This document shows, piece after piece, positions 4,232 to 16,703 of a stretch of 64,000 nucleotides of DNA. The translations under genes and the position numbers were made by a program. The stretch lies in contig CATQHI010000003.1 in assembly GCA_958295895.1 (NCBI GenBank), positions 372,001 to 436,000 on the forward strand, given 5' to 3'. The notes below the pieces were generated by a model. It did no database searches and was not told the origin of the DNA. It saw only the letters and a list, made by a program, of their open reading frames with translations. Numbering within the stretch: position 1 is the stretch's first letter; each line of letters begins with the position of its first letter. The DNA is from Saprospiraceae bacterium. Its GTDB lineage: Bacteria; Bacteroidota; Bacteroidia; Chitinophagales; Saprospiraceae.

Positions 4232-6180
4232 ATGCGCTACTGCTACCTGGCCTATCTACTCCTTGCCTCATTTATAGCTAGCGCTCAGGCGGACATCCGG
4301 ACATCTACAACGATGATCCCATGCAGAGGCTACCGCTGGGGGTAGAGCACTCCGAGTACATTATCCGCGAGCCCGTAGGGCTGGAGAAGGTCACCGTACC
4401 CCGGGTAGAGCCACTTAACTGGTGGACCGGCATGCAGTCGCCGGAGCTAGAGCTGCTGGTGTACGATCGTAACGTGGCCGCTTATACTAACGCAGAGGTG
4501 GCTTATCCCGGTGTCCGCGTCGTCTATGTCCAACGGGAAGCGAACCCTAACTACCTCTTTATCGGATTACAGATCGGACCGGGCGCCGCGCCGGGCAGTT
4601 TTCCGATTACACTTACCGGCGAGGATAGTAGCCGCACCATAGACTACGCGCTACTTCCCCACCCCCGCAATACTCAGGGGCGCAGCAAGCTCAGCCAGGC
4701 TGATTTTATGTACCTGATCATGCCCGACCGCTTCGCCAACGGCGACCCTACGAACGATACCGTCGCGGGTATGGCGCAGACCGGCACCAACCGCAACAAG
4801 ATCTTTTTTCGCCACGGCGGCGATCTGGCCGGCGTAGCGCAGCACCTCGACTATTTGCAGGACCTCGGCGTCACCGCCCTGTGGCTCAATCCCGTGCTCG
4901 AAAACGACCAACCCTATGAGAGTTACCACGGCTACGCCATCACGGACCACTACCGCATCGACCGGCGTTTCGGCTCCAATGAGGCGTATCGCCGGCTGGT
5001 CGAGGCCGCCCACCAGCGGGGTATCAAGGTCATTATGGACGTTATTTTCAATCACGTTGGCGACCGACACTACCAAATTCTCGATCTCCCCAGCACGGAC
5101 TGGATCCACCAGTGGCCGGAATACACCCAGACGACCTACCGGGCCACCACCCTGCTCGATCCCCACGTGAGCGACTACGACCGCCGCCGGATGACCGACG
5201 GCTGGTTCGATAAACACATGCCCGATCTCAATCAGCAAAATCCCCATCTGGCCCGCTACCTGATCCAGAACAGCCTCTGGTGGACGCTCTACAGTGGCCA
5301 GGACGGATTCCGCATCGACACCTATTCCTACCCCGATCCCAATTTTATGGCCGAGTGGAACCGCCGCCTGTTGGAGGAAAGCCCCGACCTGGGCATCTTC
5401 GGCGAAACGTGGGTACACGGCCCCGCCGTACAGGCCTACTTCGCCGGCGGCCGCGGCATCCACCAGGATTTCGACACCCACCTGCCCGGGGTCACCGACT
5501 TTCAACTCTACTACGCCATCCATGAGGCCCTGAACACGGAGCCCGGTTGGACCGACGGCGTACTTAGGCTGTACTATACCCTGGCGCAGGACTACCTCTA
5601 CGCCAAGCCCGAAAACAACGTCACCTTTCTCGACAATCACGACATCGCGCGGCTATTCACCAGCCTGGGACAGGATACCACGAAAATGAAGTCCGCCCTT
5701 ACCCTGCTGCTAACCCTACGTGGCATCCCCATGATTACCTACGGCACGGAGCTTGCCTTCGAGGGCTCCGGGGGCGGCTTCGGCGAGGGGGGGCGCATTG
5801 ACTTCCGCGGCGGCTTTGCCGGCGACACGGCCACCCTCTTCGACGCTGGTAACCGTACCGCTACAGAGTCGGCCATCTTCCGGCACCTGCGCGACCTGGC
5901 CCACTACCGAAAAACTAGCAAGGCACTTACCGAGGGCAGCCTCACCCAGTTTGTGCCGGTGGATGGTATCTACGTTTACTTCCGCCAGGCCGGTGACGAG
6001 CAACTGATGGTAGTGTTCAACGGCAACAGCGAGGCGCGCGAGGCGATCGATCTCAGTCCGTACGCAGGACGGTTGGCCGGCTACACCTTGGGCAAGCTTA
6101 TCACTCAGTCTATGCAACCCATTGATTTACAACGCGTCAGCCTTGCCGGTAAGGAAGTAGTAGTGATCCAACTCGAGTAA
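4232..6180 (+). CDS. Exported GH13 alpha-amylase family protein (cyclomaltodextrinase/neopullulanase type)
   Basis: This is a retaining alpha-glucan hydrolase. The uninterrupted frame 4321-6180 encodes 619 residues with an N-terminal starch-binding-like domain (EPLNWWTGM) and a GH13 barrel. GH13 motifs in order are DVIFNH, the subfamily MPDLN signature, FRIDTYS (nucleophile Asp333 counted from 4321), GETW (acid/base Glu362) and FLDNHD (Asp438). A signal peptide (MRYCYLAYLLLASFIASAQA) is encoded from 4232 in the neighbouring frame. It joins the main frame if one base is missing near 4290-4297, giving AQADHPDIYNDDPMQ. I therefore place the start at 4232. If the sequence is correct as given, the protein starts at 4321 without an export signal. 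Likely role: periplasmic or surface degradation of starch or cyclodextrins, as in SusA-like enzymes. No susCD pair is adjacent. Confidence 0.85.
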
Positions 6181-6185
6181 GCCGC

Positions 6186-7121
6186 TTACTGTACCTTGAA
6201 GTTATAGGAGATGCGTCCGCACTGCTCGGCGGGAGCTAGGGTATTGGCCGCAAAGCGCCACTGCCGGGCATTCTTGATGGCGGCGGCCACCAGACTGGGA
6301 TCGGCCGTCGTACTGCCGTTCTGAGTGTAGTTGGCCTTGGTTATTTGTCCGTCGGGATTGACGCACACGTCCACTACCACGACCCCGGAGGCCTGGGAGT
6401 TCTCCCGTACGGGGGGAGAGGCTAGCACGCCCCGGCCCCCCAGACCGCCACTGACGCGTCCGCTACCGGTAGAGATACCGCTGAGGCGGTCGGCGTTGGG
6501 GTCGCCATCGTCCACGCCCTGGTTTCCGGGCTTACCGGTGTTGCCGTTACCACTTCCGGTACCGAAGGCGCCTCCGAGTTGTCCCTTGAGGGCATCGGCT
6601 TCGGCCTGCCGTTTGCGCTCGGCTTCGGCTTCGGCGCGGCGGGCGGCCTCGGCGGCATCGGCCTGGCGCTGGCGTTCGGCGGCTTCGGCCTGTTCGCGGC
6701 GGCGTTGTTCGGCGGCCTCCTGTTGCTCGCGGCGGCGCTCGGCCTGCCGTTCGGCTTCCTCGCGGGCCTTTTGCTTGCGCAGCGCGATGGCGGCGGGGTC
6801 TTCGGTTACGACGACCTCGCGTTGCTGTGGCTTGGGCTCGGGCACGGCGATGGGCGGAGGGGGCGGGGCCGCGGGTACGGGCGGCGTGGGTTCGGGCACC
6901 GGATCGGGCCGCGGTGTAGTGGGCGCCGCGGCATTATCATCCCCCTGCCCCGTATCCACGAAACCAAGGTTGACCAGAATACCGGGTTGACCGGGCGGCG
7001 GGTTTTGGTAAGAAAATAGCTTAGCGATCAGTAACATAATCACCAAGACCAGTGCGACGAAGGCGGCAATCTTACCTACCCGGTCGCCCCGCAGTTCGCT
7101 TTCGCTGAGTGTCGAATCCAT
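6186..7121 (-). CDS. TonB-like energy transducer with TolA-like coiled coil
   Basis: A 311-residue protein with one N-terminal membrane helix (about residues 18-38), a Pro-rich stretch (about 75-100), an Ala/Glu/Arg-rich coiled coil (about 115-180), a Gly/Asn/Asp-rich linker and a C-terminal TonB-like domain (SGVVVVDVCVNPDGQI ... ARQWRF). The architecture suits a cell-envelope-spanning protein that couples inner-membrane energy to an outer-membrane transporter. In Bacteroidota similar proteins follow exbB/exbD genes, but none is in this window, so the motor partners are unknown. It is the last gene of a likely minus-strand operon (M20D, DUF4421, DoxX, this gene). Its stop and the GH13 stop sit inside a short palindrome (GTAAG-CCG-CTTAC, 6177-6189). 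Confidence 0.85.
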   Translation of the reverse strand: MDSTLSESELRGDRVGKIAAFVALVLVIMLLIAKLFSYQNPPPGQPGILVNLGFVDTGQGDDNAAAPTTPRPDPVPEPTPPVPAAPPPPPIAVPEPKPQQREVVVTEDPAAIALRKQKAREEAERQAERRREQQEAAEQRRREQAEAAERQRQADAAEAARRAEAEAERKRQAEADALKGQLGGAFGTGSGNGNTGKPGNQGVDDGDPNADRLSGISTGSGRVSGGLGGRGVLASPPVRENSQASGVVVVDVCVNPDGQITKANYTQNGSTTADPSLVAAAIKNARQWRFAANTLAPAEQCGRISYNFKVQ

Positions 7122-7175
7122 AGCATCGTATCATTTGCGCTCGGTAACCACAACCGTGCTACGGCGCGCTTTATT

Positions 7176-7547
7176 TTATTGCACCTGCGGCCCCGCCCCG
7201 TATGCTCTGGCCGTATGGTAGAGCCAGGCGATCAGCACAACCTGCAGGAGGAGCCGAAAGATAGCGATGACTTTGCTACCGATGACCGGGCGGGCGCGGG
7301 CCAGGTCGATGACGTGTAGGGGCAGAAAGACGAGCATCAGCGCGGCTGCGGCGTACAGACTGAGCTGGCGGGTGGCGGGAATGAATAGCCCGATGCCGAT
7401 GAGGAGTTCCGCCAGTCCGCCCGCTGCGTTGGCCAGCGACTTAGGGAACCAGTCGGGCATGAAGGGGTGGTAGAACTGCGGATTAATGAAATGATAAAGT
7501 CCGGCCAGGAGCAGTACGGCGGCAAAAACATAAACGAGTACGTACAT
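7176..7547 (-). CDS. DoxX-family membrane protein
   Basis: A 123-residue protein with four predicted membrane helices. It has features of small DoxX/DoxD-like proteins: an N-terminal LLAGLYHFINP segment, a GGLAELLIGIGL second helix and a conserved FLPLHVIDLA segment. The biochemical role of this branch is not established. The start at 7547 (MYVLVYVF) was chosen because upstream in-frame residues are unrelated and overlap DUF4421. It lies 7 bases after the DUF4421 stop, consistent with one transcript. Confidence 0.8.
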   Translation of the reverse strand: MYVLVYVFAAVLLLAGLYHFINPQFYHPFMPDWFPKSLANAAGGLAELLIGIGLFIPATRQLSLYAAAALMLVFLPLHVIDLARARPVIGSKVIAIFRLLLQVVLIAWLYHTARAYGAGPQVQ

Positions 7548-7554
7548 GGCGGAC

Positions 7555-8515
7555 CTATTTATCGACGCCCAGCCGGCGGCCGATGACGAGCTCGAGTTGG
7601 GTTTCGCTGACGCGGGTATCAAAGCTGTCGCTCTCATCGATACTCGGCAGGTAAGCCGCAATAATGGAAGCATAGACCTTGTGACCGTTTGCCCCAAAGG
7701 CCAGCCGACTCCGTACCCGGGCGCTCAGGCGCACGCGCTCGATCTCGCGGTCGCTACCCAGTGGATCGTAGTCGATAAAAGCGCAGCTCCGGCCCGGCAA
7801 TGACCATGGGCGTAATGAACCAGAAGCGACCGAAAATAAAGGTATACGCATACCCCACACCGGCACCCACCTTGGTTTGGGCGAAGCGATTGATGTCGGT
7901 AGTGCCTACGTCGCGCAGCGGCAGGCGGAGACTGTCGGCGGTAAGTACCTGCCGGGCCACGGCCCCACCGACCAGGAGAGAGCCGGCACTCCTAAGCTGT
8001 CGATTCCGTACCCGGAAGCTGGAACGCAGGCTGAAGCGGTCGGAATTGAGAATGCGGAAGCCGTACAGCAGCGCATTGATGAAGCGGATATCTTTTTGGA
8101 ACACCGGCTCCTCGCCTACCATATCGCGCTCGAAGCCGGTGGTACGGCGCACGTTCAGGTTACCGTATACTTTATCGCGGTACACCTGTAAATTGACTCC
8201 CAACGATTTGGCATCCCCCAGGTCGGAGCCGGTACCCAGATCGCTAACGGGGATACTGAAGGTGTACCCCAACCACTTGTACCTGCCCCCCAGGCGGAGG
8301 TCAAGACTGCGGTTGGTGAAGTTGAGTTGTTCCTGATCGGCCACCGAGAACACGGCGGAGTTATCCCGGTAGCGCAGCCCGCCGTTGATGCGGCTGTAGT
8401 TGCCGAAGGTTTCTACAAAGGTAGAGTCAAGCTGGGCGGCTAGGGGAACACTCAGCAGTAAGGAAACTAGGCTCACTGCTACCCTTACCCACCACCTACT
8501 TACCATTCTGTCCAT
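7555..8515 (-). CDS. DUF4421 family protein, exported, frameshifted in this sequence
   Basis: A protein of about 319 residues of unknown function. An N-terminal signal peptide ends near SVPLAAQ, followed by the DUF4421-like start (LDSTFVETFGNYSRINGGLRYRD when read in pieces) and many alternating beta strands, suggesting a surface or outer-membrane-associated beta protein. The frame starting at 8515 stops at 7754, but the protein clearly continues in the next frame (FIDYDPLGSDREIERVRL ... to 7555). One surplus base in the A4 run at 7777-7780 explains the break. The first 20 bases overlap the end of the upstream M20D gene, implying translational coupling. Confidence 0.75.
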
Positions 8516-9791
8516 TCAGGTAGTCCAACGCTAGATTGGTGTAAAGTTGTACCCCGTAGGTGAGACTGCGTTCGTCGATCACAAAATCCGGGGTGTGGTG
8601 ACCGGGTGCCTCGGCGGGGTCCATCTCGGGATCCATGCCCCCTAGGAACAGGAATAGCGACGGCACCTCCTTGGCGTAGAACGAGAAATCCTCCGCACCG
8701 GTAATGGGGCGGACCAAATGAACATGTTCTTCCCCTACCGTAGCCTGTACGGTGGGCAGCATGCGGGCGGTCATAGCGGGATCGTTGTACGTAACGGGGT
8801 AGCCCTCGTCGATGGATACCTCAGCGCTGGCCCCGCTGCTCTCCGCAATGGAGGTAGCCGTCTGGCGGATCCGTTCGAAGATTTCCTCCTTCATCTCCTC
8901 GTCCAGCGTGCGAATCGTACCGATCAGGGTGACCTCTTCGGGAATGATATTGCTACGTACGCCACCCTCGATTTTACCGACGCTGATCACGGCCGGCTCC
9001 TTGGTCAGCTCGGTCTGTCGGGCTACGATCATCTGGAGGCCCACCACGATCTGGGCGGCGGCGGTAATGGGATCGACACCGGCCCAGGGGGTGGAGCCGT
9101 GGGCCTGTTTACCCTTCACCTCGATACGGAAGCTATTGCTGGCCGCCATGGCCCCGCCTGGTTTGTAATTGACGTGGCCCACGGGGGTCTGGGAATTGAT
9201 GTGGATACCGAAGGCCGCTTCCACGCCGTAATCTTTGAGCACGCCCTCTTCCACCATGAGCTTAGCGCCGCCCTCCTCGCCTTCCGGAGCCCCCTCCTCG
9301 GCGGGCTGAAACAGGAACACGATGGTACCGGGGATACTAGCTTGCTGCGCACTGAGCACCTCGGCCGCTCCCATGAGCATGGCGACGTGGGTATCGTGAC
9401 CGCAGGCGTGCATCACACCTACCTCCTCGCCGCGGTACTCGCCGGTAGCCTTGCTGGCGTAGGGCAGATCGGCGCGCTCGGTTACCGGTAGGGCGTCAAT
9501 GTCGGCACGAAGCGCTACTACCCCTCCGGGCTGCCCACCCCGTAGGATACCCACTACGCCGGTGTGTGCTACGCCCGTGCGCACCTCCAGACCGAGCTGC
9601 TCCAGGTGAGCGGCGATGTACTTGGCAGTTTCGGTCTCGCGGTTGCTGAGCTCGGGGTACTGGTGTACGTGACGGCGCCAGGTAATGACCTCGTCGGCCA
9701 GGGCGTCGGCGCTCTCGGCGGTGGCGGCGTAGTCAGTCTGGGCGCAGAGGGGAAGGGTAATACCCAGCAGAAAAAAGATAAGTAGGCGCAT
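8496..9791 (-). CDS. M20D-family amidohydrolase (N-acyl amino acid/peptide hydrolase), exported
   Basis: A 431-residue metallo-amidohydrolase of the M20D group (hippurate/N-acyl-L-amino-acid hydrolases, carboxypeptidase Ss1-like). A short signal peptide (MRLLIFFLLGITLPLCAQ) suggests a periplasmic location. Metal-site motifs are visible: MHACGHDTH, PAEEG, a FGIHIN histidine and the C-terminal GAEDFSFY with PGHHTPDF. The dimerisation lid segment (KGKQAHGSTPWAGVDPI) is also present. Substrate cannot be told from sequence. It is probably the first gene of a minus-strand operon, with a -7 box TATCTTCG 23 bases upstream. Confidence 0.9.
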   Translation of the reverse strand: MRLLIFFLLGITLPLCAQTDYAATAESADALADEVITWRRHVHQYPELSNRETETAKYIAAHLEQLGLEVRTGVAHTGVVGILRGGQPGGVVALRADIDALPVTERADLPYASKATGEYRGEEVGVMHACGHDTHVAMLMGAAEVLSAQQASIPGTIVFLFQPAEEGAPEGEEGGAKLMVEEGVLKDYGVEAAFGIHINSQTPVGHVNYKPGGAMAASNSFRIEVKGKQAHGSTPWAGVDPITAAAQIVVGLQMIVARQTELTKEPAVISVGKIEGGVRSNIIPEEVTLIGTIRTLDEEMKEEIFERIRQTATSIAESSGASAEVSIDEGYPVTYNDPAMTARMLPTVQATVGEEHVHLVRPITGAEDFSFYAKEVPSLFLFLGGMDPEMDPAEAPGHHTPDFVIDERSLTYGVQLYTNLALDYLNGQNGK

Positions 9792-9814
9792 CGGTAGTCA
9801 TTCGGTTAGGGGAC

Positions 9815-9822
9815 CGAAGATA
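9815..9822 (-). promoter_or_regulatory. -7 box (TATCTTCG) of the M20D operon
   Basis: Minus-strand TATCTTCG, one base from TAnnTTTG and the same variant seen before fmt and tRNA-Ser. It ends 23 bases before the M20D start. Confidence 0.5.
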
Positions 9823-9843
9823 CGGTGCGCCTACCGGCCCACC

Positions 9844-10338
9844 TCAGCAAACTTTGTCGGCACAGGCCGAGCTGGCAAACGCATCGGGTTTAGCCTTGAA
9901 CACGAAGCCCATGCCGAGGATGTAGCCCATGGCTTCCTTCAGCGCTACGTTGCTCTGGAAGTGGGGGTCGGTGTTGATGTCAGCGTGTACTTCCAGTTCC
10001 ACCTCGTGACGGTCCAGGATACTACAGAGGGCGTAGGCGATCTCCACCGATCGGCCTACCTCAAGGATCATGCGCTCGCGCAGGCTCATCTTAGTTTCGC
10101 TCTTGTAGTTGGCGATGAACATGAAGCCGCCGCGCTTTTCGCGCAGAAAAACGATCACGGTGGCAAACTCGACGGTGCCGCCGCGTACCTGGCTATCGGT
10201 GCCGATACACACCTTGAGGCGGTGGCCGTCGGCGCGCTCCTTGACCACGGTGGCCTCGACGGCCTCCGCGATGGGCTGCTCGATCCGGCGGCCGTCGTAA
10301 CGGCGCCACTTCATATCCGTTAGAGCCTTAGTGTTCAT
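9844..10338 (-). CDS. YkuK-type RNase H-like protein (DUF458)
   Basis: A 164-residue protein matching the YkuK/DUF458 family, which has a predicted RNase H-like fold; its biological role is unsettled. Visible family features are an acidic IGTDSQ motif, a REKRGG strand, the RMILEVGRSVEIA helix, HADINTDP, and an ALKEAMGYILGMGF segment near the end. It ends with a short Ala/Cys-rich tail (ASSACADKVC). I chose the ATG at 10338 (MNTKALTDMKWRRYDG). The long upstream extension overlaps the start of the divergent ATPase gene and has no family similarity. A TATCTTCA box lies at 10368-10375. Confidence 0.8.
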   Translation of the reverse strand: MNTKALTDMKWRRYDGRRIEQPIAEAVEATVVKERADGHRLKVCIGTDSQVRGGTVEFATVIVFLREKRGGFMFIANYKSETKMSLRERMILEVGRSVEIAYALCSILDRHEVELEVHADINTDPHFQSNVALKEAMGYILGMGFVFKAKPDAFASSACADKVC

Positions 10339-10471
10339 CGGTGTGGCATTTGGGGACTTGCGTAGCGTGAAGATAACCAATAGGGTACGGCCGAAAGTTG
10401 CTGGAGGGTTAAGTTTCCGACATTTACCCCGCTTTTGCACCTTCGCCCAATAAACGCTTACTTTACCCGGT

Positions 10472-13135
10472 ATGCGGGAGAGCCAGGAACAACCCACTTC
10501 GACGGTCCCCTTCAAGTTCAAAGAGCTGAAGGTGTACAACTCTACGGAGTACCTGTGGGGTAACTACAAGAAGTACCGTCAGGTCTTTGACCGCTTCGAG
10601 ACGGCCTACGTTTATGCCGAGCTTTCGGTGTTCAACAAGCGCTTCGACGAGGCCGACTGGTCGCTGCACGTCAACCTGAAGTGCTTTCGCACGGAGGAAA
10701 AGGGCAGGCAGGAAGTTTGTAGCCTCACCATCGACAAGGAGGTCAGCAAGTTCGATGCCGTGGTGTACCTGCGCGAGGGCTGGGGCAATCAGAAAAAGGG
10801 CTCTTTCTGGAAGGCCGGCACCTACTTCTGGGAGGCCTACATCGATGGCCAGCGGGTGGGTTCCAAGTACTTTTACCTCATCGAGTCGGAAGAAAGCTCG
10901 CTGGAGAGCGATGACCGGGGGGGTAACCGGAAATCCCGCGTCTGCGATGACTACCTGGAGCTGAACTCAGTCAAGCTCTACGAGGGCCCCTACGACGACG
11001 TGACGGCCGACGACCGGGTGTACCTGCGTAGTTTTGCCAGCCAGGATACCCGCTACGTTTACCTGGAGCTCGAGTTCAAAAATAAGCAACCGGCCCACGC
11101 CTGGCAGCTCGAACTGTTCACCAAGTTCCTGAACGAGGCCCGCGAACTGAAGGGCCACGTAGCCCGCCTACAGCAGGTGGAGGCCGGACAGGAAACCATT
11201 AAACTCACCGCCGGTTGGGGCGCGGCCACCCCCAACCTCTGGCGCGAGAACGCCTACACGGCAGACATTGTCTTTCTGGATAGTTTGATCGCCTCGGTGC
11301 CCTTTACGGTGGGGGACGAGTCCCAGGTTGGGTTTCCCGCCGTACTACTCCCCGGACAAAAGCGGGGGACCGTACTGGGAGCGGAACCGGAGGAAAACAG
11401 CACCTTCGAGGACATCATGGCCAAGCTCGACGCCCTCATCGGCCTACAGGAGGTCAAGAAGCAACTGCGGGACCATGCGGTCTACATCCGATTTCTACAG
11501 TTGCGGCAGGAGCGTGGATTTGCCATGGATACCGGTATTGAGGTCCACTCCGTCTTCAGCGGCAACCCCGGTACGGGAAAGACCACGGTAGCGCGCATGA
11601 TGGGCCAGTTGTATAAGAAGATGGGCCTGCTGAGCCGGGGACACACCGTGGTGGCCGACCGGGTAGACCTGGTGGGGGAGTACATCGGTCAGACCGCCCC
11701 CAAAACCCGGGAGGTCATCGAAAGCGCCCGCGGTGGGGTACTGTTCATTGATGAGGCCTACGCCCTGGCCCGCAGCAACGATGACGGCAAGGACTTTGGC
11801 CGCGAGGTCATCGAGATCCTCGTCAAGGAAATGTCCAACGGCCCGGGCGACCTGGCCGTGGTGGTAGCCGGCTATACGGAGGAAATGAGCCGGTTCCTGG
11901 ACAGCAACACCGGGCTGAAATCGCGCTTCAAGCACCACTACGAGTTTCGTAATTTCCTGCCACAGGAACTTAGTCAAATTGCGGACTACGCCGCCGGGCA
12001 GCTCGGGGTACATCCTACCCTGGAGGCCAAAGCGCTACTGGACGAGACCATTACCCAGGCCTTCCGCAGCCGCGATCGCTCCTTCGGCAATGCGCGCTAC
12101 GTCCATGACCTGCTGGAAAAAGCCAAGGTGCAAATGGCCCTGCGGCTAATGTCCCGTGACGAATCCGGTACTTCGCACACCGATGATGCCCTGAGCACCA
12201 TTCAGCTAGCGGACGTGCGGGCCATCAAATCCATCCGCAGCACCGAACGGCCCGCCATACCCGTAAACGAAGCACTACTCACTGCCACCCTGGAGGAACT
12301 GGATCAACTAGTGGGTATGGAGAGCGTCAAGAGCCAGTTGCACGAGCTGGTACGCCTGGTGCGGTACTACCGCAAGACCGGCCGCGACGTGCTCAACGCC
12401 TTCCAGCTCCACACGGTGCTGGTCGGTAATCCGGGCACCGGTAAAACTACCGTAGCCCGTATCCTTGCCCTACTCTACAGCGCCCTTGGCATCCTCGAAC
12501 GCGGACACATCGTGGAGACCGACCGGCAGGGCCTCGTGGCAGGCTACGTGGGGCAGACGGCCGAAAAGACCACCAAGGTGATCGAGGAGGCGATCGGCGG
12601 GGTGCTCTTCATCGACGAGGCCTACGCCCTGACACAGTCCAACACCTCGCAGCGCGGCGACTTCGGGGACGAGGCCGTACAAACGCTGCTGAAGCGTATG
12701 GAGGACCAGCGCGGTGAGTTCTTCGTCTGCGTGGCCGGCTACCCGGACAATATGGAGTCGTTTCTGAAGGCTAACCCGGGACTGAGCAGCCGCTTCGACA
12801 AGATTCTGCGTTTTGAGGATTACAGTGCGGAGCAGCTCCTGGAGATCGCCGACCGCATGTTTCGCCAGCAGCGGGCGCAGCTCACCGCCTCGGCCCGCAC
12901 CCACCTGGAGAGCTACCTACGCTTCCTCCACAAGTTCCGGGATGCCTACTTTGGCAATGCCCGCACCGTGCGGCAGTTGGTGATCGACATCCTGCGCCGT
13001 CATGACCTACGCAAAGCCGAGGAGGTGCCCGCAGGGGGAAGGGCCCCCTCGGTAAAGATCCTGAAGGTGGACGTCGAACACCTAAAACTCGATACCCGGG
13101 AGCTGTCCATCCAGCGCAAACGGATTGGCTTTTAG
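10472..13135 (+). CDS. Double-AAA CbbX/SpoVK-like ATPase with duplicated N-terminal beta domains
   Basis: An 887-residue ATPase whose two AAA modules both resemble the CbbX/CfqX/SpoVK family (Rubisco activase and sporulation protein K relatives). Module 1 has Walker A GNPGTGKT at residues 364-371 and Walker B FIDEA with Asp427-Glu428. Module 2 has Walker A at 652-659 and Asp715-Glu716. Both keep the pore-proximal GYxGQTA segment and a sensor-like SRF. The first about 280 residues look like two divergent copies of one beta-rich unit: the first begins KELKVYNSTEYLWG (about 14-140), the second ELNSVKLYEG (about 152-278). Each ends with a GWG ... FW/LW pattern and a strand pair leading to YFYLIESE or PFTVGDE. 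No Rubisco or sporulation genes are nearby, so the client is unknown. It is convergent with the lipoprotein gene, the stops being one base apart. Confidence 0.85.
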   Translation: MRESQEQPTSTVPFKFKELKVYNSTEYLWGNYKKYRQVFDRFETAYVYAELSVFNKRFDEADWSLHVNLKCFRTEEKGRQEVCSLTIDKEVSKFDAVVYLREGWGNQKKGSFWKAGTYFWEAYIDGQRVGSKYFYLIESEESSLESDDRGGNRKSRVCDDYLELNSVKLYEGPYDDVTADDRVYLRSFASQDTRYVYLELEFKNKQPAHAWQLELFTKFLNEARELKGHVARLQQVEAGQETIKLTAGWGAATPNLWRENAYTADIVFLDSLIASVPFTVGDESQVGFPAVLLPGQKRGTVLGAEPEENSTFEDIMAKLDALIGLQEVKKQLRDHAVYIRFLQLRQERGFAMDTGIEVHSVFSGNPGTGKTTVARMMGQLYKKMGLLSRGHTVVADRVDLVGEYIGQTAPKTREVIESARGGVLFIDEAYALARSNDDGKDFGREVIEILVKEMSNGPGDLAVVVAGYTEEMSRFLDSNTGLKSRFKHHYEFRNFLPQELSQIADYAAGQLGVHPTLEAKALLDETITQAFRSRDRSFGNARYVHDLLEKAKVQMALRLMSRDESGTSHTDDALSTIQLADVRAIKSIRSTERPAIPVNEALLTATLEELDQLVGMESVKSQLHELVRLVRYYRKTGRDVLNAFQLHTVLVGNPGTGKTTVARILALLYSALGILERGHIVETDRQGLVAGYVGQTAEKTTKVIEEAIGGVLFIDEAYALTQSNTSQRGDFGDEAVQTLLKRMEDQRGEFFVCVAGYPDNMESFLKANPGLSSRFDKILRFEDYSAEQLLEIADRMFRQQRAQLTASARTHLESYLRFLHKFRDAYFGNARTVRQLVIDILRRHDLRKAEEVPAGGRAPSVKILKVDVEHLKLDTRELSIQRKRIGF

Positions 13136-13136
13136 C

Positions 13137-13949
13137 CTAAAATTCCGTAAATACCGATTCGTCCATTTTATTGGTCACTGCGATATCGCCCAGTTGAAAG
13201 CGGCCTCCACGATCGCCACTGAGCATAATCCCGTCGTACTCCCGGTAGCCGTCGTAGGGCGTTTCCATACTGGGTTCGGCATCGGCGGCGTCGCGGAAAA
13301 ACTGCCAGGTGTTGATGCGGTAGCTATCCCGGTCGACGAAGAGGCGGTAGCGGTTACCCGGGGTGTCGCCCACGTCACGGAAGGTGAGCTCGAGCACCTC
13401 GGAGGGGCGATTTTTGAGAGGGTCGGTTTCTTCCCCCACGTACTTGAGGGTGACCCCACTGTCCTTTAGCTTGAAGGGCTGCACGAGCCAGTAGCTATCG
13501 TTGATGAACATGGAATTGGCCGACTGTAGGTAGAGCGAGAGACTATCCGGGTTGGTCATCTCCTCGCCCTCCTTCCGCACCGCCCCCGTGAGATCGTCGT
13601 TGCTGTAGTCGAGCAGGTACACGATATCCTTTTCGGGCACCTCGATGCGTACGCGTTGTTCCTCCTTATCCCAGGTGAGGGTACGCACGCCGAAGAAATT
13701 CCAGGTGAAGAAGCGAGCGTCGTCGTAGGCCCGCCGGCCGCCGTGGTACTTGACGACGCTATCGGCGATGGCGATGGCCCGCTCATCCGAGCCCGCAGCG
13801 TCGAAGCCGTCGGCCGGCGGATTTGCGTCGGCTACAGTTGCTGTGGCCGGCACGATCCCCGTGCCGTCCCCCGCGGCGGGATTGGTTTGGCAGGCGGCAA
13901 GCAGTAGTAGTAGTAGACTGAATACTAAGGTGGTGTAGTGCATATTCAT
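13137..13949 (-). CDS. LolA-like lipoprotein of unknown function
   Basis: A lipoprotein of about 270 residues. The signal sequence ends in a lipobox (LLLLAACQ), giving a lipid-modified Cys. The mature part is beta-rich (TWNFFGVRTLTWD, IVYLLDYSN, RYRLFVDRDSYRI), like LolA/LolB-type or DUF6503-like Bacteroidota proteins that may bind lipid. This is a fold-level guess, not a firm family call. The start at 13949 (MNMHYTT) is preferred over the ATG nine bases upstream. It lies 18 bases after the phosphodiesterase gene on the same strand and is probably co-transcribed with it. Confidence 0.7.
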   Translation of the reverse strand: MNMHYTTLVFSLLLLLLAACQTNPAAGDGTGIVPATATVADANPPADGFDAAGSDERAIAIADSVVKYHGGRRAYDDARFFTWNFFGVRTLTWDKEEQRVRIEVPEKDIVYLLDYSNDDLTGAVRKEGEEMTNPDSLSLYLQSANSMFINDSYWLVQPFKLKDSGVTLKYVGEETDPLKNRPSEVLELTFRDVGDTPGNRYRLFVDRDSYRINTWQFFRDAADAEPSMETPYDGYREYDGIMLSGDRGGRFQLGDIAVTNKMDESVFTEF

Positions 13950-13967
13950 GCAGGCCATAACGGCAGG

Positions 13968-15062
13968 CTACCGGAGTAGTTCGGCCTCCAGATAGACTGG
14001 CTGGTGGTCACTGAAGCGGAAGGACTGATCGATGGTCTTGAGTTGCCGCAACCGAATACCCGGGCTAGCGAGGTAGAAATCGATGAGGCTGACCTGGCTC
14101 CGGTGGTGGTCAAAGACATCGTCACTCCGGCGTACCGTGGCCATGCCCGGATCGTAGGCCCACGTCCACCCCGGGGGTAAAAAGTCAAAGGCAATACCGG
14201 GGGGCAGTTGGGTCTCCTCTACGGTCGGATTGAGCGAGAACCAGTTGAAGCCCGGGGGAAGCTGATTCCAGTCCCCCCCCACGATGACGTAACGGCCCGC
14301 CGCATAGTCCGCCAGCACCCGCTCGCGCAGGTAGGCCATCTGCTGCCGCCGCACGGAGCCATCCTCGTCGTAGGCCGAAAGGTGGACGTTGTACAGGGCC
14401 AGCTCCTTACCCCATCTGGTGCGGTACACCTGCCGTAGGGCGCAGCGGTCAAGCTGAAACAGTCGCGTGGGCCAGGGAAACTCCCCCGGGAGTTGGAGCC
14501 GCTCGGCTGTGGTGGGCTGGTAGCGACTCAGGGTCACCAGCCCGCTCTGCACCGCCCCGTAGTGATCCCAGGGCTGAAAAACCGGTAACGGTACCCGCCT
14601 GACCTGGAAATTCGGGGCGTAATAGGTTACGTAGTCCGGCAGTGCATTGCGGGCCTGGGCCAGCTCATTGATGTAGTAGCTCCGGCGGCTGGCACTGTCT
14701 ATTTCCTGCAGTAGCCAAAAATCGGTCTGCGTATTCTGCAGTGTGAGCTGCTGTCCGGCTACGTAGCTATCGACGTGCTCCCGCGTGGCGCGCGCCTTGC
14801 CGAGCTCCGTCCAAAAGAAATCGCCGCGGTTGTAGTACCAGTACTCCTCCGCCCCCAGACCGCCGTAGCCAACGTTCCACGTGGTCAGGGTAAGCAGGCT
14901 ATCCTGAATCACCTGCGGCGCGCCCGCCGGGGCGTGACTGGGTTGTAGGACGGCGGTACCCCGGGGCTGCCAGTCGGTCACGGTTCCGTACACCAGTAGC
15001 CCCCCCACGTAGAGGAGCAGGAGCAGGAGCAGCCAGCGCAGGAACTTCCACGTACGACGCAT
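13968..15062 (-). CDS. Membrane-anchored endonuclease/exonuclease/phosphatase family protein
   Basis: A 364-residue metal-dependent phosphodiesterase/phosphatase of the EEP superfamily. An N-terminal membrane helix (about residues 7-25, WLLLLLLLYVGGLLVYG) puts the catalytic domain outside the cytoplasm. Superfamily residues in order are TTWNVGY (Asn), LLQEID (Glu), YNVHLSAYD (His region), VGGDWNQLP (Asp/Asn), LIDFYLAS (Asp) and SDHQPVYLE (catalytic His). Substrate is not predictable; sphingomyelinase-like and nuclease-like members share this core. The start at 15062 (MRRTWKFL) is preferred: a TACTTTTG box ends only 4 bases before it, so the message may be leaderless. It is divergent from bshC. 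Confidence 0.85.
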   Translation of the reverse strand: MRRTWKFLRWLLLLLLLYVGGLLVYGTVTDWQPRGTAVLQPSHAPAGAPQVIQDSLLTLTTWNVGYGGLGAEEYWYYNRGDFFWTELGKARATREHVDSYVAGQQLTLQNTQTDFWLLQEIDSASRRSYYINELAQARNALPDYVTYYAPNFQVRRVPLPVFQPWDHYGAVQSGLVTLSRYQPTTAERLQLPGEFPWPTRLFQLDRCALRQVYRTRWGKELALYNVHLSAYDEDGSVRRQQMAYLRERVLADYAAGRYVIVGGDWNQLPPGFNWFSLNPTVEETQLPPGIAFDFLPPGWTWAYDPGMATVRRSDDVFDHHRSQVSLIDFYLASPGIRLRQLKTIDQSFRFSDHQPVYLEAELLR

Positions 15063-15066
15063 AGTG

Positions 15067-15074
15067 CAAAAGTA
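15067..15074 (-). promoter_or_regulatory. -7 box (TACTTTTG) directly before the EEP-family start
   Basis: An exact TAnnTTTG match on the minus strand with only 4 bases between the box and the ATG at 15062. If used, the transcript would begin at or next to the start codon. Confidence 0.55.
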
Positions 15075-15113
15075 CGCGGCAAACCTTTGCTGCCTTTCCG
15101 CGTACCCTACACC

Positions 15114-16703
15114 ATGAAAATAGCCCGCATCCCCTACGCCGAGGTACCCCAGTTTTCCGTGCGCGACGTTGCCTACGCCACCAGCCGGCAGGACCTGCGC
15201 CCCTTTTATAAGTACCCCGTCACGCTGGATGCCTTCGCGGACGTGCTGTGGGACCGCACCGCCCAACCGACCGACCGGGCCCTTCTGGTAGATGAATTGG
15301 AGCAACAGTACGCGGCGCTCTCCACCGATGTTGCCCCGCCACCCGCTCTGCAGCACCTGCGTTCGCGGCAGACCTTTACGGTCATTACGGCCCACCAGCC
15401 GGCCCTCTTTACCGGTCCGTTTTACTATATCCTAAAGATCTGTTCGGCCATCAACCTGGCGCGGCAGCTTCAGCAGCGCTACGCCGACTACACCTTCGTA
15501 CCGGTTTTCATCACCGGGGGGGAAGACCACGACTTTGCCGAAGTCAATCACACCCAGGTGTACGGTAACCGCATTGAGTGGCAGACCGAAGCGGGGGGAC
15601 CGGTGGGGGCCATGGCGACCGATACCCTTGCCCCGGCCCTGGCCCAGCTGAAGGACATCCTCGGCGACCGGCCGACGGCCACGGAGATCTATGAGATCAT
15701 CGAACGCACCCACACCCAGCACGCTACCTACGGGGCGGCCTCGGTGGCGCTGGTGCACGAGCTATTTGCCAAGTACGGACTGGTGGTGGCCGACATGAGC
15801 CGCCCGGCCTTTAAACGGGCCTTCGTGCCCATCATGGAGCGCGAGCTGTTCGACTCGGTAAGCCAGCCTCTGATCGAGGAGGCGCAGCGCAAGCTGGGGC
15901 CCCTGGGCTACACCGGTCAGGCCCACGCCCGTGAGATCAACCTGTTCTACCTCAGCCCGGGGCGGCGCGACCGGATCGTGCGCGGGGAGGGAGCCTACCG
16001 GGTACTGGATACCGAGCACCGCTTTACGGAGGAGGAGCTCCGGCAGCAGCTACACGAGCACCCGGAACGCTTCAGTCCCAACGTGGTGATGCGGCCGCTG
16101 TACCAGGAGCTGATCTTTCCCAACCTGGCCTACATCGGCGGTGGCGGCGAGCTGGCCTACTGGCTCGAACGCAGGGCCCAGTTCGATGCCTTTGGCCTCA
16201 ACTTCCCGATGCTCGTGCGCCGCAACTCCGTACTCTGGATCGACGGCGGCAACCAGAAGAAACTGGCAAAGCTGGAGCTGGATTACCGCGAGCTCTTCCG
16301 CGATGCCGACCTGATCATCCGCGATTACGTGGCCGAGCAGTCAGAGAACGAACTGAGTCTGGCCGAGGAGCTCGGCGCGCTCGAAGCCCTGTTTCGGGGC
16401 ATCGCGGAGAAGGCTGAGCGCATCGACCCCACTCTGGCCAAGGCCGTCCTGGGCGAGCACGCGCGGCAGGCCAAAACGGTAGAAAACCTCGAGGGTCGCC
16501 TGCGGCGAACCGAGAAGCAACGCTTTGAAACGGCCATGAATCAGATCCGTACGCTACGGGAGAAACTCTTCCCGGAGGGCGGTTTGCAGGAGCGGTACGA
16601 CAGCTTCCTCAACGTCTATCTACAGGAGGGGGAGCAGCTCTTCGGGGTCCTGATCGAGGAGCTCGATCCGCTACGGGAGGGTTTGGTCGTGATCCAGCCC
16701 TAA
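15114..16703 (+). CDS. bshC: Bacillithiol biosynthesis protein BshC
   Basis: A 529-residue protein matching BshC, the putative cysteine ligase that adds Cys to glucosaminyl-malate in the last step of bacillithiol synthesis. Typical features are an N-terminal Rossmann-like part with TAHQPALFTGPFYYILKI, GGEDHDFAEVNH, a middle region with NVVMRPLYQELIFPNLAYIGGG split over two motifs, and a C-terminal coiled coil (about residues 420-500). The start at 15114 (MKIARIPYAEVPQF) matches the family. An AACCTTTG near-box lies at 15082-15089. bshA and bshB are not in the window. The 3' end overlaps fmt by 4 bases, tail to tail. Confidence 0.9.
   Translation: MKIARIPYAEVPQFSVRDVAYATSRQDLRPFYKYPVTLDAFADVLWDRTAQPTDRALLVDELEQQYAALSTDVAPPPALQHLRSRQTFTVITAHQPALFTGPFYYILKICSAINLARQLQQRYADYTFVPVFITGGEDHDFAEVNHTQVYGNRIEWQTEAGGPVGAMATDTLAPALAQLKDILGDRPTATEIYEIIERTHTQHATYGAASVALVHELFAKYGLVVADMSRPAFKRAFVPIMERELFDSVSQPLIEEAQRKLGPLGYTGQAHAREINLFYLSPGRRDRIVRGEGAYRVLDTEHRFTEEELRQQLHEHPERFSPNVVMRPLYQELIFPNLAYIGGGGELAYWLERRAQFDAFGLNFPMLVRRNSVLWIDGGNQKKLAKLELDYRELFRDADLIIRDYVAEQSENELSLAEELGALEALFRGIAEKAERIDPTLAKAVLGEHARQAKTVENLEGRLRRTEKQRFETAMNQIRTLREKLFPEGGLQERYDSFLNVYLQEGEQLFGVLIEELDPLREGLVVIQP

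Follow-up and report, generated by a model that had tools for sequence, protein, structure and literature searches.

The locus raises the question of whether a chain in which both halves of a CbbX-like architecture appear twice belongs to a protein family of its own, and what such a protein might do. At positions 10472 to 13135 of the forward strand, the window (the whole stretch of 64,000 nucleotides that was analysed) carries an intact open reading frame with an ATG start that encodes 887 amino acids in the order beta1-beta2-AAA1-AAA2, a layout shared with its full-length relatives. The two N-terminal beta-sandwich domains, predicted by AlphaFold2 and aligned to each other by hhalign, occupy residues 13-140 (positions 10508 to 10891, + strand) and 158-284 (10943 to 11323, + strand). 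They are followed by two AAA+ modules of the SpoVK/CbbX/EccA type, each with its own lid, as recognised by Pfam (AAA twice, AAA_lid_6 twice) and NCBIfam; the first spans approximately residues 308-586 (11393 to 12229, + strand) and the second approximately residues 600-870 (12269 to 13081, + strand). Among PDB sequences, module 1 comes nearest to CbbX (3syk, E = 7.3e-59), which over residues 308-588 is also the best PDB match to the protein as a whole, and module 2 to EccA1 (9lur, E = 2.3e-46). No peptidase domain appears among 25 of the 48 Pfam matches listed for the chain.

The first-pass annotation had claimed that the beta half and the AAA half are both doubled, and the claim is borne out. 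Profile-profile comparison of the two N-terminal halves gave a probability of 99.2 and an E-value of 2.9e-19 over 120 columns at 21% identity, and comparison of AAA1 with AAA2 gave a probability of 100 and an E-value of 5e-88 at 39% identity, each E-value coming from one pairwise profile comparison; we judge both internal repeats to be statistically strong at this level. Structure prediction, the check proposed for the N-terminal repeat, agreed: the AlphaFold2 model of residues 13-301, built from 51 sequences (mean pLDDT 93.1, pTM 0.87), consists of two beta-sandwiches whose strands follow the same order, with a single low-confidence loop near the start of domain 1.

The catalytic motifs are conserved in both modules, as had been read from the single sequence. 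The Walker A motifs of module 1 (GNPGTGKT, residues 364-371; 11561 to 11584, + strand) and module 2 (residues 652-659; 12425 to 12448, + strand), and the Walker B motif LFIDE of each (residues 424-428 and 712-716, + strand), are invariant or nearly so among the 51 aligned sequences. All 51 carry these motifs in each module, along with the sensor-1 GY, FGNAR and the NPGxxSR finger region, and depart from them only at single positions; no variation at all is seen in the Walker Lys, Asp and Glu, the sensor-1 Tyr or the arginines of the finger and of sensor-2. Two asparagines, N479 and N768, each six residues before an invariant Arg, are likewise invariant. When uncut two-AAA chains were considered more broadly, the first module kept all eight checked residues in 126 of 126 cases and the second in 121 of 126; the exceptions were four with a Walker A Thr-to-Ser change alone and one degenerate module (L229).

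These motifs also place the protein. The available text of PMC10659427 defines a higher-order SpoVK/CbbX/EccA clade by the sensor-1 GY and other features, and describes its members as narrow, dedicated chaperones whose variable N-terminal domains may recruit the substrate; it names three clients or settings (Rubisco, MurG and type VII secretion) and reports no association with peptidases. AGY is found in both modules of all 51 sequences, and so is the FGNAR Arg, the second arginine finger, which by our own reading is the sensor-2 of that definition. Judged from its sequence, the gene is a representative of a little-studied but widespread Bacteroidota branch of the CbbX/SpoVK/EccA chaperones with a doubled N-terminal domain that is absent from Pfam. 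A literature search, covering sources available in part, found no description of the beta-beta-AAA-AAA family or of multi-AAA bacterial chains of this clade.

Profile searches did not assign the N-terminal region to a known unrelated domain. Among the 51 family members, Pfam matches to residues 13-301 were weak and scattered (at most 6 of the 51 members for any family, best E = 0.017), none of them credible, and no PDB sequence matched this region even at E = 10. Foldseek related the predicted pair to FnIII (RbmA), arrestin/Vps26 and transglutaminase folds at about 10% identity, and the modelled fold is of a generic, common Ig/FnIII/arrestin-like kind. RbmA, Vps26, arrestin and transglutaminase were rejected as identities at that level of sequence identity, with TM about 0.3 and rmsd of at least 13 Å over both domains. 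DUF3859 was rejected as well: its single match, in a secreted relative, falls below threshold (18.2 against a cut-off of 24 bits), as does a PapC_N match in the same relative, and 3 of 198 genomes of the phylum match DUF3859 at E = 0.01, none above the cut-off. A profile of the beta domain itself matched in 29 of 395 genomes of the phylum. Some of the proteins found carry beta domains with no AAA module, in a stand-alone form of 279 amino acids and in one protein of 674 amino acids, both with signal-peptide-like starts. Because the domain occurs apart from AAA in apparently secreted proteins, it looks more like an interaction module of general use than an established reader of clients. The loci with two beta domains, a signal-peptide-like start and no AAA are L174:5523-6359, L175:40-876, L176:5472-6308 and L179:5116-7137.

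The protein resembles several named systems and matches none of them throughout. CbbX (3syk/3zuh) shares the AAA+ fold, with about 40% identity when aligned by Foldseek, but it has one AAA module and no beta pair, and it acts on Rubisco; the NCBIfam CbbX model (TIGR02880) scored 435.7 bits, under its cut-off of 459.25 even with the two modules summed. EccA belongs to the same clade and provides the PDB match to AAA2, but its model (TIGR03922) scored 405.1 bits against a cut-off of 466.65, and EccA and EccA-like proteins differ in having a type VII context and an N-terminal beta-helix (L228) or, in the available text of the literature, TPR; neither was found in the N-terminal Pfam scan or among 25 of the 48 matches listed. 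The Streptomyces EccA-like chain L228, whose gene adjoins eccCa on a plasmid, also has two AAA modules, but these are sisters in the module tree, so their tandem arose separately. Proteins of the Cdc48/p97 type share the plan of an N-terminal binding region followed by two AAA modules; they belong, however, to another AAA branch, and the domain arrangement of our model is not superposable on theirs. The earlier statement that no Rubisco, sporulation or type VII secretion genes are nearby is correct for the nine neighbouring open reading frames scanned with Pfam (4321 to 16703), and the whole genome from which the window derives has no match to RuBisCO_large (PF00016) or to WXG100.

Full-length relatives are widespread in the family genomes searched and less frequent in those of the order. 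Some match was found in 59 of 60 genomes (the window's own and 59 relatives), most of the weak ones being other AAA proteins. Full-length matches were present in the window's own genome, in 19 of 20 genomes of the same genus, in 14 of 16 others of the family (33 of 36 for the family) and in 7 of 23 genomes of the order; G018 had no match, and G029 and G030 had fragments. Across 66 loci, the relatives with names come mostly from Neolewinella, Lewinella and Saprospiraceae. A search of 295 genomes of the class, with a distant gut relative as query, found matches in 78, and 29 of the best 30 loci encode complete beta-beta-AAA-AAA chains, the other (L239) being a cut beta-AAA-AAA-AAA chain. In all loci examined there are 123 distinct uncut chains with the beta-beta-AAA-AAA layout, 868 to 954 amino acids long by open frame, a set fetched by similarity and so not an unbiased census. 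Retention in 33 of 36 family genomes, together with this uniform architecture, argues for a regular cellular role. A second full-length copy occurs in 3 of the 60 genomes. At L074, two beta-beta-AAA-AAA paralogues lie close together on one contig (3156-5771 and 7974-10622), 45% and 55% identical to the window protein; a mixed ring of the two is possible.

A phage origin was considered and rejected, since 11 of 50,697 phage records match and none covers 80% of the query. A relative of 936 residues (L229:3071-5878), on a scaffold from the human gut that is catalogued as phage, has an intact AAA 1 and a degenerate AAA 2, its two leading beta domains being recognised by eye only and not by profile. 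The gene adjoining L229 is endonuclease-like by our own reading, which makes the scaffold look bacterial, and a scan of viral contigs with the L229 protein as query found nothing.

The two-AAA gene behaves as a unit of its own. We surveyed the genes beside homologues at 80 loci, which comprise 81 genes for 79 distinct proteins and include two pairs that each represent one and the same stretch. Clusters 1, 2 and 7, the sampled members of which fall within the AAA gene on the opposite strand, were set aside. No true neighbour cluster occurs at more than 14 of the 80 loci, and the commonest, a 2Fe-2S ferredoxin at 14, is found at no Neolewinella or Lewinella locus. The first-pass annotation had suggested that the N-terminal pair might be the recognition module of an undescribed remodelling system; recognition is retained in the reading given below, but the "system" is not, since the two-AAA genes share no conserved partner gene. 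The divergent neighbour in the window is an RNase H-like gene (PF04308; 9844 to 10539, - strand; ORF list, Pfam and locus clusters), whose listed TTG start overlaps the 887-codon gene; a shorter start is likely because its family cluster averages 168 amino acids. It lies beside the AAA gene at 10 of the 80 loci, all of the Lewinella type, and we do not claim it as a partner. The other neighbours in the window are, by Pfam, an M20 peptidase, an exo/endo-phosphatase family protein and one protein with no Pfam match, which by our own reading looks like a lipoprotein. The M20 cluster comprises 10 loci, 6 of the Neolewinella type and 4 of the Chitinophagales/Sphingobacteriales type (two being the same stretch); in the latter four the peptidase is 35-38% identical and differs in distance and orientation, and as M20 is a broad family it was not taken as a partner.

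A ClpB-like ATPase was also rejected as a partner: its N-terminal part occurs in 6 of 60 relatives, all six with a full-length AAA gene, but adjoins that gene in four, and it is absent from the window's genome. The ClpB-like ATPase at L062:1912-5196 (- strand) has about 1,095 amino acids and an N-domain of its own, and in some Saprospiraceae genera such a gene is divergent from the beta-beta-AAA-AAA gene.

The family extends beyond two modules. The earlier remark that CbbX and SpoVK relatives are usually single-AAA proteins was only partly true: tandem modules also occur behind Sel1 repeats (L114) and a beta-helix (L228), and there are chains of three, five and six modules. A shorter form, beta-beta-AAA, has 603 amino acids (L121/L173). 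Three-AAA chains of groups f36, f54 and f65, from the same phylum, have the same beta domain and an AAA1 and AAA2 near those of the window protein, but they differ in having one beta domain (16 of 27 uncut chains have one detectable copy), a TPR region in front in L171 (TPR is not among the matches listed for L180), and an often-degenerate third AAA. Within f36, the AAA model finds matches in 68 of 79 genomes, with exactly three in at least 60 of 79 among the matches listed. A quick tree of 66 of the 363 modules, with long branches flagged, placed the window AAA1 near the AAA1 of three-AAA chains (SH-aLRT 87) and grouped its AAA2 with their AAA2 (SH-aLRT 99, in a set that also holds long-branch rows); on these groupings the tandem looks ancestral, older than the split between two- and three-AAA chains.

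Synteny is stronger around the three-AAA genes. A cluster with a DUF2807 representative directly adjoins 22 of 26 of them, nearly all in f36 (for example L225:11765-12412), and a PurE-type AIR carboxylase cluster occurs at 21 of 29 multi-AAA loci; one representative of each cluster was scanned, and that of DUF2807 has a lipoprotein-like start. ABC transporter and short-chain dehydrogenase genes also recur. As nearly all of these loci come from f36, we treat the synteny as a lead and not as a function, and the DUF2807 and AIR carboxylase associations may be family background.

On this evidence the 887-residue protein is probably an AAA+ protein remodeller, a dedicated chaperone rather than a partner of a protease. 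Acting, probably, in the cytosol, it would use its N-terminal Ig/FnIII-like pair to recruit a client or adaptor and would hydrolyse ATP in both modules, pulling or twisting part of the client through a central pore; the most likely layout would be a hexamer of two stacked rings, one of AAA1 and one of AAA2, as in Cdc48/p97. CbbX and EccA come nearest to the modules in sequence and in fold (PDB sequences, Foldseek), and the beta-beta-AAA chains suggest that a single module can serve alone. If a client is found, this widely conserved Bacteroidota member would add a fourth remodelling role to the CbbX/SpoVK/EccA clade. A more specific role, as a SpoVK-like activator of MurG or another envelope enzyme, we hold to be improbable. 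The clade is shared, the NCBIfam SpoVK model (spore_V_K, TIGR02881) matches both modules with 490.8 bits against a cut-off of 422.95, and MurG is the client proposed for SpoVK in B. subtilis in the available text of PMC10659427. Yet the cut-off is reached only by adding the two modules together, each alone falling short of it (257.6 and 243.4 bits), an annotation trap that probably gives rise to mistaken "stage V sporulation protein K" names. The same text gives SpoVK a short N-domain of three strands and one helix and restricts true SpoVK to sporulating Firmicutes, whereas our protein has two beta-sandwiches and its named relatives are Bacteroidota. The DUF2807 cluster, with its lipoprotein-like representative, is a weak hint toward the envelope, but the neighbours of the two-AAA genes give no such pointer and the AIR carboxylase is equally recurrent. 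It is very improbable that the protein is an IetA-like ATPase of an anti-phage or conflict system: the PADLOC IetA and NCBIfam IteA matches over the AAA core are weak (NF042959, 64.4 bits, far under the cut-off of 510), no defence partner was recognised among the nine neighbours scanned, and presence in 33 of 36 family genomes is unlike the patchy distribution of defence genes.

Returning to the remodeller, its two modules could be arranged otherwise, with AAA1 and AAA2 of one chain adjoining in a single six-module ring of three chains, relatives with three or six modules then being more fully linked, as in dynein and midasin. We regard this as a serious possibility, although somewhat doubtful. 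Six stacked rings are hard to imagine for the longer relatives, and artificially linked Msp1 dimers, in the available text of PMC12793716, assemble in threes into pseudohexamers that are still active as ATPases. The spacing of modules is similar in chains of two, three, five and six, and the first module of the five- and six-AAA chains has a changed site but keeps its arginine finger, both of which suit the side-by-side ring; five-module chains, however, do not divide evenly into a ring of six. Lost modules allow a comparison of the two layouts: in a ring of like modules the ATP site and the module's own finger should be lost together, while in an alternating single ring the loss of one site should free the neighbour's finger. 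AAA3 lacks both features in 10 of the 27 uncut three-AAA chains (including one truncated frame) and only the finger in L221, and it retains both in the remaining 16, one of which, L209, has a dead AAA2 whose finger is lost; the dead last module of L229 has also lost its finger, and the partner modules in chains with a dead module keep every checked residue. This coupled loss fits stacked rings of like modules. The independent events number about four to five (three parsimony changes for AAA3 sites, the AAA2 case and the L229/L239 lineage), and a sign test was not significant (p = 0.5). L221 is a misfit, as is L239, the one cut chain looked at, whose degenerate module aligns with its finger kept. 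The top covariation signal between modules approximately equals that within modules and does not separate the two layouts. The full-length AlphaFold2 model has a pTM of 0.46 and its p97-like Foldseek matches an rmsd of about 16-27 Å, so the domain arrangement is not predicted by it. Going by the sequences, we put the chances of stacking, as against the side-by-side ring, at somewhat better than even.

The longest relatives are a six-AAA chain of 1712 amino acids (L167:51-5186, + strand), its modules of the CbbX/SpoVK type, and five-AAA chains of 1395 (L168:4066-8250, + strand) and 1386 amino acids (L169:3809-7966, + strand); in all three the first module is degenerate. FHA and PP2C phosphatase genes follow at three of three loci (by sequence clusters, and by Pfam for L168 only), and a Ser/Thr protein kinase gene lies upstream at both of the two loci that have upstream sequence. 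A speculative and rather unlikely extension is a bacterial AAA+ lineage in which copies of the motor module have multiplied freely in a single chain (1, 2, 3, 5 or 6 copies). Its extremes would be covalently linked single-chain rings, a bacterial counterpart of dynein and midasin, and would apparently share their loci with genes for an FHA protein, a PP2C phosphatase and a Ser/Thr kinase; the window protein would be an intermediate, with three two-module chains per ring. Relatives with one to six motor modules per chain form a natural series on the evolution of AAA+ rings from separate to linked subunits. A rule by which module number must divide six is ruled out by the five-module chains. By our own reading, a zinc-ribbon-like stretch lies ahead of the first module in L167 and L168.
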